From Gemmatimonadota bacterium (GTDB lineage Bacteria; GCA-2686955): a DNA stretch of 12,219 nucleotides. The position numbers and the translations under genes were made by a program. The stretch lies in contig NYZA01000058.1 in assembly GCA_002686955.1 (NCBI GenBank), positions 1 to 12,219 of the forward strand, read 5' to 3'. Position 1 is the stretch's first letter. Each line of letters begins with the position of its first letter. Shown here in pieces: positions 2,287 through 5,809 of this stretch. The notes beneath the pieces were generated by a model that saw only the letters and a program-made list of their open reading frames with translations, was not told where the DNA came from and searched no databases.

Positions 2287-3561
2287 TCAGCCCGCCAGAT
2301 CTTCCTCCACCCCCCGAGTCTCTTCGAGCACGATTCCCACCAGATCCTCCACGCTCGATAGTCGCGCTCGCTCGAGGACCCAGCGGCTGCCGATGCGAAT
2401 CGCCAGTCGTTCCGCGACGGCGCGCTGGTCGAGATCTTCGATGCTGGTCAGATCCCAGATGCTCACGATCCCCATCATGCGGCGCAGCATCTTGGCTCCG
2501 CCGTGTCCCGCCGTGTCGCGCAGCAGATCGGCCATGTAGCGCCGGCGATACTCGGCGAAGGCATCGTCGCCCCCGGGGAAGTCCCAGTACGGCTCCGGCA
2601 CCAGCTCGCCGCGGTTGTTTTCGATCCACAGGGTCTCGAACTTGCGCGCGAACTCCCCCCACACCGAGCGCACCAGATCCAGCAGGTAGGCCTGGTACTC
2701 GCGACGCGCCCGCGGATCGGGAGTGTGCGCATAGTGGGAGAGATGATTGAGCACCAGATTTTCGAGGATGGCTCCAAGGTCGAATCCGATCGGGCCATAG
2801 AAGGCGAACTCCGAGTCGATCACCCGGGTGTCGCGCTCGTTCACCATGATGCTCCCGGTGTGCAGGTCGCTGTGGATCAGCGCCTGGGCATGGGTCATGT
2901 AGCCGGCCTTCATCTCGGCCAGTGCGAGCTTCAGCGCGCCGTTGGCGCGCACCTCGCGAACCTGCGCGTCGATGCGCGGGTTCCACTGGTTCTCGGGCGA
3001 CTCCATGTAGGGATTGGTGAAGACGAAATCCTCCTGGATCTTGCACAGATGAGGATTGATGAACTCGCTCATCAGCGTCTTCTTCGCCAGTCCGCTGAGG
3101 TAGAGATCCGAGGTAAAGAAGAGCACCCGGGCGACGAAGCTCGAGATCTGGTCGACGAAACGGGGGAAGCGCTCGCGGGCCACCAGGGGTTTGCGCATGA
3201 TCTGGTGCTTGCGCAGATGCTCCATGATGACCAGCGACATCTCCTGGTCGTGCTCGTACACCCGAGGAACCAGACCTGGCGTCAGCTCGTTGTACTTCAG
3301 CAGCGCCTGCGTCTCGAAGCGCATCCGTTCCCGGGTGAGCGGCCACGATTCCCCGGCGACGCGCAAGTAGGGAAGCGCCTGCTTGAGGACCGCGGACTGC
3401 TCCGGATCGGCGACGTTTTCGATGATGAACACCAGGTTCAGGTTGCCGTCCCCCACCTCGCGCGCGCGCAACGCGGCCCCGGTCTCGAAGATCGCCTCCA
3501 TGGCCGAACAAGCGCGTACGTAGTCCACGACACTTCGTTCATCTAGAGCTCGATAAGCCAT
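2287..3561 (-). CDS. mtnK: S-methyl-5-thioribose kinase
   Basis: This cytosolic kinase phosphorylates 5-methylthioribose with ATP to 5-methylthioribose-1-phosphate in methionine salvage; related enzymes also accept 5-deoxyribose. The 424 residues match the family's usual length. Visible motifs, numbered from this start, are the glycine-rich nucleotide loop GDGNLNLVF (38-46), a Lys in VLKQALPYLR (about 60), the catalytic loop HSDLHTGSIMV (230-240, catalytic D232), and the DxE metal motif with substrate loop DSEFAFYGPIGFDLGA (249-264). Family members usually read HGDLHTGSI, so Ser replaces Gly here. ATG 3561 is preferred over an upstream in-frame start because AGGA (3570-3573) lies 8 bases before it and the longer N-terminus would overlap mtnA. 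The gene is last in its operon, 14 bases after mtnA, and converges on the integrase remnant. It appears intact. Confidence 0.93.
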   Translation of the reverse strand: MAYRALDERSVVDYVRACSAMEAIFETGAALRAREVGDGNLNLVFIIENVADPEQSAVLKQALPYLRVAGESWPLTRERMRFETQALLKYNELTPGLVPRVYEHDQEMSLVIMEHLRKHQIMRKPLVARERFPRFVDQISSFVARVLFFTSDLYLSGLAKKTLMSEFINPHLCKIQEDFVFTNPYMESPENQWNPRIDAQVREVRANGALKLALAEMKAGYMTHAQALIHSDLHTGSIMVNERDTRVIDSEFAFYGPIGFDLGAILENLVLNHLSHYAHTPDPRARREYQAYLLDLVRSVWGEFARKFETLWIENNRGELVPEPYWDFPGGDDAFAEYRRRYMADLLRDTAGHGGAKMLRRMMGIVSIWDLTSIEDLDQRAVAERLAIRIGSRWVLERARLSSVEDLVGIVLEETRGVEEDLAG

Positions 3562-3575
3562 GGCGGTTTTCCTGT

Positions 3576-4688
3576 TCAGCGCTGTTCCGGATAGAGGCCG
3601 AGCACGCCCTCTTCGCAAGCGTCGCAGATCCCCCGCTCGGTGATCAAGGCGGTCACCAGGCGAGCGGGCGTGACATCGAACGCGAAGTTGGCCGCTGGGC
3701 TGCCCTCCGGCGTCAGGCGGACGTCGAGGATCCGATCTTCGTAGCGGCCGCGGATGTGGCTCACTTCGCCGCCTTCGCGCTGCTCGATCGGGATCTCGGC
3801 CACTCCGTCGCGCATCGTCCAGTCGAACGACGACGAGGGCAAGGCGACATAGAAGGGGACACCGTTGTCGTGCGCGGCCAGCGCCTTGAGGTAGGTGCCG
3901 ATCTTGTTGGCGACGTCGCCGGTAAATGTGGTGCGGTCGGTTCCGGTGATGACCAGATCGACTTCGCCATGCTGCATCAGGTGACCGCCGGTGTTGTCCG
4001 CCACCACCGTGTGCGGCACGCCGTGGTGAACGAGCTCCCAGGCCGTCAGCCGCGCTCCTTGGTTGCGCGGTCGCGTTTCGTCGACCCAGACGTGCACGTC
4101 GATGCCGGCGTCGTGGGCGGCGTAGATCGGGGCGGTGGCCGTGCCGTAGTCGACGAAGGCCAGCCAGCCGGCGTTGCAGTGGGTGAGCACATTGACCCGC
4201 GCTCCCCCCTTGCGACGACTGATCTCTTCGATCAGAACGAGGCCGTGCTCACCGATGCGCCGGCAGTGCTCGGCGTCCTCGTCGGCGATCTCCTGGGCGG
4301 TGGCGCGCGCGATGCGCACCATGGTCTCTACCCGATCCGCGGCGCGCAGCGCCTCGAGCTGCCTGCGTACCGCCCACTCCAGGTTCACCGCGGTCGGTCG
4401 GGTCGCTCGGAGCTGCCGGCCGGCCTCCTCCAGGGCATCCAGGAAGGGCTCACGGGCCAGGCCGGACGCCTCCAGGGCGGCGATGTACATTCCAAAGCCG
4501 GCGGCGGCGCCGATCAGCCCGGCACCGCGGACGTGCATCTCGGCGATCGCCCTCGCAGCCTCGTCGACCGTGCTCAGGTCCTCGATCACGAAGCGGTGCG
4601 GCAGGTCGCGCTGATCGATGATCCGCACCACGCGCGGGTCGTTCTCTTGCAGCCAGATGGTCCGGTAGTGCCGGCCCGAGACTTTCAT
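3576..4688 (-). CDS. mtnA: S-methyl-5-thioribose-1-phosphate isomerase
   Basis: This enzyme isomerises 5-methylthioribose-1-phosphate to 5-methylthioribulose-1-phosphate, the step after MtnK. The fold is shared with eIF2B-alpha-like proteins. Its 370 residues begin MKVSGRHYRTIWL, a typical MtnA opening. Visible motifs are IDQRDLPHRF (24-33), MHVRGAGLIGAAAGFGM (51-67), LTHCNAGWLA (catalytic Cys171), DETRPRNQGARLTAWEL (203-219), DNTGGHLM, GTDR (catalytic Asp251), GDVANKIGTY (257-266) and PIEQREGGEV. Two departures from the commonest MtnA sequence are VRGAG for VRGAP and GTDR for GADR. These could mean a subgroup acting on a related sugar phosphate such as 5-deoxyribose-1-phosphate. ATG 4688 overlaps the upstream stop as ATGA and has AGGA at 4697-4700. 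A longer frame to 4856 lacks family similarity and is rejected. Confidence 0.92.
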   Translation of the reverse strand: MKVSGRHYRTIWLQENDPRVVRIIDQRDLPHRFVIEDLSTVDEAARAIAEMHVRGAGLIGAAAGFGMYIAALEASGLAREPFLDALEEAGRQLRATRPTAVNLEWAVRRQLEALRAADRVETMVRIARATAQEIADEDAEHCRRIGEHGLVLIEEISRRKGGARVNVLTHCNAGWLAFVDYGTATAPIYAAHDAGIDVHVWVDETRPRNQGARLTAWELVHHGVPHTVVADNTGGHLMQHGEVDLVITGTDRTTFTGDVANKIGTYLKALAAHDNGVPFYVALPSSSFDWTMRDGVAEIPIEQREGGEVSHIRGRYEDRILDVRLTPEGSPAANFAFDVTPARLVTALITERGICDACEEGVLGLYPEQR

Positions 4689-5809
4689 TCGTCGCTTCCT
4701 TCCCGCGACCCGGAGCCGGGTTCGAGCAGCTCGTCGAGGAGCCCCAACTGGCGCTTCCCTCGCATTTGCTCTTGGCGCAGCGCCGCGAGGATGCCCGCCG
4801 CCAGGTCGTCGAGCGCTGGCTGGTCGGGGTTGGCGGCTCGAACCGACTCCACCCATTCGACGGGGAGCACGTCCAGGCCGTGCAGCGCGCCCGCGACGCT
4901 TCCGGCCATCGCCGCGATGGTGTCGCTGTCGCGGCGGAAATTGGCGCCCTCCACCACCGATCGACGGTAGTCCCCTCGCGTGAGGGCGAGAATGCCGAAG
5001 GTGGCGGGGACCAGCTCCAGAGCGTCGGCCAGGCCGAGCAACATTTTGTCGTGAAAGCGCCGCCTGAAGTCGTCCGCATCCGTTGCCGCGCCGGCCAGCT
5101 CGACCGCGGCGCGAATGCGCGCGGCGGTCCGCTCGTCGGAATGTCGCACCCCCGCCTCCAGAACCTCATCGATGCCCGCGCCTGGCACCATCGCGGCGGC
5201 GACGGCGGCGGCCAGGGCTCCCGGGGCGGTGGCCGAGACCCCGGACTGCAGCACCGAGCTCACGTCGACGGCGTCCATCGAGGCCTGCCGGGGATCCCCG
5301 GCATTGATCAGTCCGACCGGTGGGATCATCATCGCGGCGTCGCAGGCGGGCAGATTCCCCTGGCCCATGTCGCGGGCGTCGGGCATCTCGCTCAGGAGCT
5401 GGTCGTAGGGTTGGTTGGTGATATGGAAGTAGAGCTTGAACCAGACCACCGCTTCCCCCGGCCAGAGCTGCCCGGGCTCGCGCGTGAAGTACTCGCGACG
5501 CATGTACTTGCAGTAGGCGCGGGCGAACTCCCGAGCGCCGATCCGCCCGTGGCTGTCGGCGATCGCCTGGCAGACGATGTTCTTGAGAATCGTGTCGTCG
5601 GTGTAGGTCCCTTTCGGGGATCCACGGAAGTACCAGTGGGGTCCATCGGGCAGATAATCGACCAGCGTCTCGATGCGCCGCGTGCCGAAGCTATTCTCGA
5701 TCCGGTCGGGGTCGCCGGACCAGGGCTCGATCGGCCCGCCCAGCGCGTCGCCGATGGCGCCGCCGAAGAGAGAGCCTTTGATCTTGCTCTCGGCCAGGGG
5801 AGTGGACAT
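4685..5809 (-). CDS. ADP-ribosylglycohydrolase-family protein (DraG-like)
   Basis: This 374-residue protein has the ADP-ribosylglycohydrolase fold, whose members use two Mg2+ (or Mn2+) ions to hydrolyse bonds at the anomeric carbon of ribose. Visible motifs are GSLFGGAIGDALGGP (12-26), GTYTDDTIL (67-75, metal ligands T70, D71, D72), and the C-terminal metal motif NFRRDSDTIAAMAGSVAGAL (290-309; D294, D296, T297). All the expected metal ligands are present, so it is probably active. No signal peptide is seen, so it should be cytosolic. ATG 5809 has GGAG at 5816-5819 with 6-base spacing. It is the first gene of a three-gene operon with mtnA (ATGA overlap) and mtnK. The context suggests a job on a ribosyl compound feeding those enzymes rather than on ADP-ribosylated nitrogenase reductase. 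The substrate is unknown; the residues after about 345 are charged and less conserved-looking. Confidence 0.88.
   Translation of the reverse strand: MSTPLAESKIKGSLFGGAIGDALGGPIEPWSGDPDRIENSFGTRRIETLVDYLPDGPHWYFRGSPKGTYTDDTILKNIVCQAIADSHGRIGAREFARAYCKYMRREYFTREPGQLWPGEAVVWFKLYFHITNQPYDQLLSEMPDARDMGQGNLPACDAAMMIPPVGLINAGDPRQASMDAVDVSSVLQSGVSATAPGALAAAVAAAMVPGAGIDEVLEAGVRHSDERTAARIRAAVELAGAATDADDFRRRFHDKMLLGLADALELVPATFGILALTRGDYRRSVVEGANFRRDSDTIAAMAGSVAGALHGLDVLPVEWVESVRAANPDQPALDDLAAGILAALRQEQMRGKRQLGLLDELLEPGSGSREGSDE

Follow-up and report, generated by a model that had tools for sequence, protein, structure and literature searches.

A DraG-fold hydrolase gene in a tight operon with mtnA and mtnK in a Gemmatimonadota bacterium: a candidate supplier of sugar to methylthioribose kinase

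Which enzyme provides methylthioribose kinase with its sugar when neither of the usual producers can be found? The question is raised by a 12,219-nt contig of a Gemmatimonadota bacterium (NYZA01000058.1, assembly GCA_002686955.1; the whole of this stretch is called the window below), in which a gene for a DraG-fold protein of the ADP-ribosylglycohydrolase family (PF03747), whose usual role is to take ADP-ribose off proteins, is followed by mtnA and mtnK, whose products recycle the sugar that remains after S-adenosylmethionine has been used. Organisms that use S-adenosylmethionine must all dispose of 5'-methylthioadenosine (MTA) or 5'-deoxyadenosine, and the enzymes known to do so are the nucleosidase MtnN and the phosphorylase MtnP. 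In the dihydroxyacetone phosphate (DHAP) shunt, or early methionine salvage, of E. coli ATCC 25922 and R. rubrum, MtnN or MtnP acts together with MtnK, MtnA, and the aldolase Ald2 (PMC10986504, PMC6302742); two ways into this route are known, through MtnN plus MtnK or through MtnP (PMC6302742, PMC10986504), and Ald2 yields DHAP and an aldehyde (PMC10986504). MtnK acts on a free sugar, which therefore has to come from a hydrolase or an importer; the only co-transcribed candidate is the DraG-fold protein. The reading that we favor, by a narrow balance of probability, is that this protein is a ribosyl hydrolase which frees methylthioribose or 5-deoxyribose for MtnK and MtnA, the DraG-fold protein and MtnK having displaced MtnP. 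The locus is laid out as follows:

4685..5809, minus strand: DraG-fold (PF03747) hydrolase gene, first gene of the operon, 374 amino acids, a predicted N-ribosyl hydrolase
3576..4688, minus strand: mtnA, methylthioribose-1-phosphate isomerase, 370 amino acids, TIGR00512
2287..3561, minus strand: mtnK, methylthioribose kinase, 424 amino acids, TIGR01767
5810..6524, minus strand: non-coding region upstream of the DraG gene, in which no known riboswitch and no sigma-70-like promoter were found

The original prediction described these genes as a tight, translationally coupled operon, with MtnN, MtnP, and an aldolase all missing from the window. The tight operon is confirmed: the three genes follow one another on the minus strand, the TGA of the DraG-family gene overlaps the ATG of mtnA at 4688 (ATGA), and 14 nt separate mtnA from mtnK. 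Plausible ribosome-binding sites precede the DraG gene (GGAG), mtnA (GGAAGGAAG), and mtnK (AGGA), and the G+C content at third codon positions (0.84-0.87) is coding-like in all three. Likewise, none of the three missing enzymes is encoded within the window. Translational coupling itself is only suggested by the ATGA overlap, as the mtnA start also has a strong ribosome-binding site of its own. Two sub-threshold Rfam matches in the upstream region were judged to be due to chance, and no transporter gene is present in the window, either in the operon or adjoining it.

Both downstream products score above the cut-offs of their equivalog families. MtnA reaches 416.7 bits against TIGR00512 (cut-off 279) and retains C171, D251, R54, and K262, and MtnK reaches 503.3 bits against TIGR01767 (cut-off 275), with 2pyw as its best match in the PDB (E 5e-95), followed by 2olc, the methylthioribose kinase of B. 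subtilis. The adjacency of the two genes and the presence of an unlinked class II aldolase gene in the host genome recall the DHAP shunt; the differences are that no MtnN or MtnP was found in the host, that a DraG-fold hydrolase stands first, and that the operon contains neither an aldolase nor an importer. The window MtnA shares 62-66% identity with its alphaproteobacterial counterparts (66% with that of Azospirillum), a type that adjoins MtnP in Azospirillum and is found in the mtnK operons of rhizobia. Because MtnA is of this type, which stands beside MtnP in Azospirillum, a sugar derived from MTA or 5'-deoxyadenosine is the simplest expectation. Altered MtnA motifs were also considered as proof of a new sugar, an argument that was dropped, given that they are mostly those of the alphaproteobacterial type and also occur beside MtnP.

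Under this proposal, the operon would carry out the first half of methionine salvage, or the DHAP shunt, in variant form. The two-metal site of the DraG-fold protein would bind the ribose of a nucleoside of the 5'-deoxy type, MTA and/or 5'-deoxyadenosine being the likeliest, and hydrolyze the N-glycosidic bond, which would leave adenine and a 5-deoxy-type ribose in free form; MtnK would phosphorylate this sugar on C1, and MtnA would isomerize the 1-phosphate to the ribulose 1-phosphate. The one class II aldolase found in the host, encoded on contig C9, may finish the route in the manner of Ald2, with DHAP and an aldehyde as products; its closest PDB matches are FucA-type aldolases, and it falls under every equivalog cut-off (best 119 bits, cut-off 250). 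A DraG-fold, metal-dependent nucleosidase replacing MtnN and MtnP would open a third, PF01048-independent route from MTA or 5'-deoxyadenosine to the MtnK sugar, a prospect that we hold tentatively and with some doubt.

The DraG-fold protein itself scores 149.9 bits against PF03747 (cut-off 26.2) and retains, as had been claimed from the sequence, all metal ligands of the fold (T70, D71, and D72 in the T-D-D motif; D294, D296, and T297 in the D-x-D-T motif), along with the conserved residue E28. Its AlphaFold2 model (predicted local distance difference test score 88, predicted template-modeling score 0.90) matched MJ1187 (1t5j), ARH3, and DraG (2woc) with Z scores of ~30-33 in a fold search, a result that points to the known all-helical DraG/ARH fold and would be compatible with more than one substrate. 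The fold and the binuclear metal ligands, shared with DraG, ARH3, and Tri1, fit a genuine hydrolase of ADP-ribosylated proteins or small molecules that is co-transcribed with mtnA and mtnK, the sugar for MtnK then coming from a hidden MtnN or MtnP, from a nucleosidase-like protein encoded on contig C9, or by import. We consider such an arrangement unlikely. The protein attains only 40.1 bits against the DraG equivalog (TIGR02662, dinitrogenase reductase hydrolase; cut-off 337) and 40.5 bits against the Tri1 ADP-ribosylarginine hydrolase (NF041672; cut-off 490), about a tenth of the cut-offs in each case, so that identity with either equivalog is ruled out. It further differs from these enzymes in its metabolic context and in two motifs, AMR and THGHP, which are characteristic of the other large bacterial clade of the family and are replaced in the window protein (AMM, LQSG), as they are in the clade of sugar-operon proteins to which it belongs.

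This affiliation was established in a midpoint-rooted tree of 44 family members, assembled without the reference DraG and ARH3 sequences, in which the window protein falls within a 20-member clade (support 100/98). The neighboring branch comprises E. coli YegU and a protein from an L. fermentum plasmid (97/97 for both branches jointly). The metal loop of the sugar-operon clade reads RRD or GRD, not GGD. Several members (L048, L050, L068, L008, and L010) are encoded in sugar ATP-binding cassette (ABC) operons, of which those of L048, L050, and L068 are importer-linked; in L056 and L059, the gene lies directly upstream of a PfkB kinase gene, and the haloarchaeal members lie near enolase-superfamily genes. 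The PfkB genes of these two Sphingomonadaceae loci (L059 379-2351, L056 6642-8146) are ribokinase-like, and in L059 the two genes touch. On the neighboring branch, the yegTUV genes of E. coli encode a nucleoside symporter, the putative ADP-ribosylglycohydrolase YegU, and a PfkB sugar kinase (PMC10819704), with yegU overlapping both of its neighbors, and the L. fermentum plasmid carries a DraG-NCS1 permease-PfkB set. The window operon partly resembles both systems, in the tight coupling of a DraG-family hydrolase to a sugar kinase and in its overlapping genes, but its kinase is MtnK, of the APH fold, rather than PfkB, the isomerase gene mtnA has been added between hydrolase and kinase, and there is no transporter. 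These contexts place the clade in the catabolism of ribosides or sugars rather than in protein ADP-ribosylation.

The gene content of the host is consistent with the displacement of MtnP. The assembly (4.28 Mb, 84.5% complete, from a phylum represented by two genomes in the set analyzed) encodes three PF01048 proteins. One is a purine nucleoside phosphorylase of the PunA type, another is a uridine phosphorylase, and the third is weakly futalosine-hydrolase-like; none of them exceeded the MtnN or MtnP cut-offs in the profile search on which the absence of both enzymes rests. A normal mtnN or mtnP gene in the same genome, which the original prediction named as contrary evidence, was thus not found in this assembly. 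The host also encodes overlapping SpeD and SpeE-like genes on contig C253 (the SpeE-like call was read from the sequence) and AhcY, for S-adenosylhomocysteine, so that it is predicted to form MTA, which must be removed. A sister genome of the same family (G001, 83% complete) has the reverse complement: MtnP is present (305.6 bits against TIGR01694, cut-off 274.85), and neither a PF03747 protein nor MtnK was found in that incomplete assembly. This mirror image, in two incomplete genomes, is what displacement would look like and is suggestive of it; the DraG-fold protein and MtnK would have displaced the phosphorylase in the host lineage. In the other MtnK genomes checked (G495, G445, G237, and G504), MtnP is present as well.

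A number of observations weigh against this interpretation. With 84.5% completeness, MtnN or MtnP may reside in the unassembled part of the host genome, and the futalosine-hydrolase-like protein of contig C9 (12027-12557, minus strand), of uncertain specificity, could be another nucleosidase; both points would also serve an ADP-ribosyl hydrolase whose neighbor MtnK is fed from elsewhere. The C9 protein is short (205 amino acids) and scores 52.6 bits against a futalosine hydrolase cut-off of 124.7. It reads ISN where MTA nucleosidases read ISD, the Asp of this motif being catalytic, which argues against it as the source of the sugar. The linkage is not conserved. No mtnA or mtnK gene lies within 8 kb of the DraG relatives at any of 80 GTDB loci, MtnK is encoded in none of the 21 genomes of the nearest relatives, and other mtnK neighborhoods contain ABC importers, aldolases, transketolase, and RuBisCO-like genes, with DraG absent. 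Outside the host, DraG-mtn linkage was not detected in 290 domain-wide genomes, in plasmids, in viral contigs, or in two further sets, 350 genomes from the phylum of L068 and 346 from that of L075; the genome scan relied on broad patterns and could have missed a close homolog lacking the motifs used. True MtnK occurs in 5 of the 290 domain-wide genomes, the host included, and in five and one genomes of the two phyla, respectively. The linkage is therefore lineage-specific, seen in one genome and in a decayed second copy within it. Of the expectations attached to the original prediction, adjacency of the hydrolase clade to mtnK and mtnA in relatives is largely contradicted, and anticorrelation with mtnN and mtnP is suggested by the host and, in reverse, by its sister. 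The original interpretation, a non-orthologous replacement of MtnN, is partly supported.

Further points against the favored interpretation concern the substrate. The closest relatives of the DraG-fold protein share just 33-40% identity with it, so their sugar contexts do not fix its substrate. The closest mtnA (73% identity) and mtnK (65%) found, in the same gene order, belong to a Chloroflexota operon (L141, genome G495) of the composition RpiR-mtnA-mtnK-dhaK-dhaL-sugar ABC, which differs from the window in carrying a sugar importer and in the presence of MtnP elsewhere in the genome; no PF03747 gene was found in G495. The window and L141 proteins have a few unusual residues in common, VRGAGLIG and F178 in MtnA and an AHV to VS[IV] change in MtnK, and residues shared only with L141 may mean that the 5-substituent of the sugar differs. 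These shared residues, and the location of the closest DraG relatives in importer-linked sugar operons or before ribokinase-like genes, in genomes without MtnK, would suit an operon that degrades some other riboside, be it a plain or modified nucleoside or an N-glycoside, instead of MTA or 5'-deoxyadenosine, with no displacement of MtnN or MtnP. We regard this as rather improbable, given that the operon has no transporter in it or beside it, that the same type of MtnA also occurs beside MtnP, that a Caballeronia plasmid (L187) combines an mtnK-mtnA-aldolase cluster with importer and DhaK/DhaL genes like those of L141 (mtnK-mtnA-aldolase-ABC-dhaK-dhaL), and that the host is predicted to make MTA, with no other clearing route seen in its genome. 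One and the same mtnA-mtnK core is fed by import or phosphorolysis in G495 and plausibly by the DraG-fold hydrolase in the host. DhaK and DhaL recur with mtnK and mtnA in both L141 and L187.

The second copy lies on contig C62 of the same genome (L026 3297-4300), where DraG residues 235-333 are joined to mtnK fragments in the order seen in the window. This copy is decayed, since mtnA and parts of the DraG gene and mtnK have been lost, with 6-11 bp overlaps at both junctions. It is 75-83% identical to the window operon at the DNA level, and 31 of the 56 differences in the DraG piece and 71 of the 99 in the longest mtnK piece fall at third codon positions. Because most differences are so placed, the DraG-mtnK pair appears to have diverged under selection on protein sequence, in two lineages, before the C62 copy decayed. 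The persistence of the pair counts against an ADP-ribosyl hydrolase and, together with the shared strand, the ATGA overlap, and the 14-nt spacing, argues against the DraG gene being a chance neighbor that was brought in by recombination and has no functional link to mtnA and mtnK. Although a tyrosine recombinase remnant (1258-2151) lies just past mtnK and the linkage was found in no other species, we judge chance proximity to be very improbable. Misassembly or mis-binning of C62 is possible. A 102-bp stretch of the window (10679-10780) is 84% identical to the end of C62; this dispersed repeat may account for contig breaks.

Our literature search yielded no paper joining an ADP-ribosylglycohydrolase with methylthioribose or deoxyadenosine and none describing a DraG-family entry to the route, and nothing useful on ADP-ribosylglycohydrolases with nucleoside hydrolases, PfkB, or nucleosidases. 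If the proposed function is correct, the DraG-fold replacement would fill a gap in genomes devoid of both MtnN and MtnP. It would also define, for the first time, a reaction in one branch of a large family, part of which would consist of nucleoside hydrolases of primary metabolism. The label "ADP-ribosylglycohydrolase" is probably misleading for this branch, YegU included.

The remainder of the window contains the following:

273-940, plus strand: MazE/AbrB-type antitoxin gene with a 4-bp overlap with a PIN_3 gene, a toxin-antitoxin-like pair
1258-2200, plus strand: the tyrosine recombinase remnant, shortened (Phage_int_SAM_4 domain only, 1258-2151) and apparently frameshifted, which ends beside the 3' end of mtnK
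9573-10650, plus strand: subtilase (Peptidase_S8) spread over two open reading frames, a possible frameshift or pseudogene
7083-9320, minus strand: gene for a large protein of the right-handed beta-helix type that carries Chlamydia PMP-like repeats
6525-7145, plus strand: open reading frame related to this beta-helix protein, on the opposite strand

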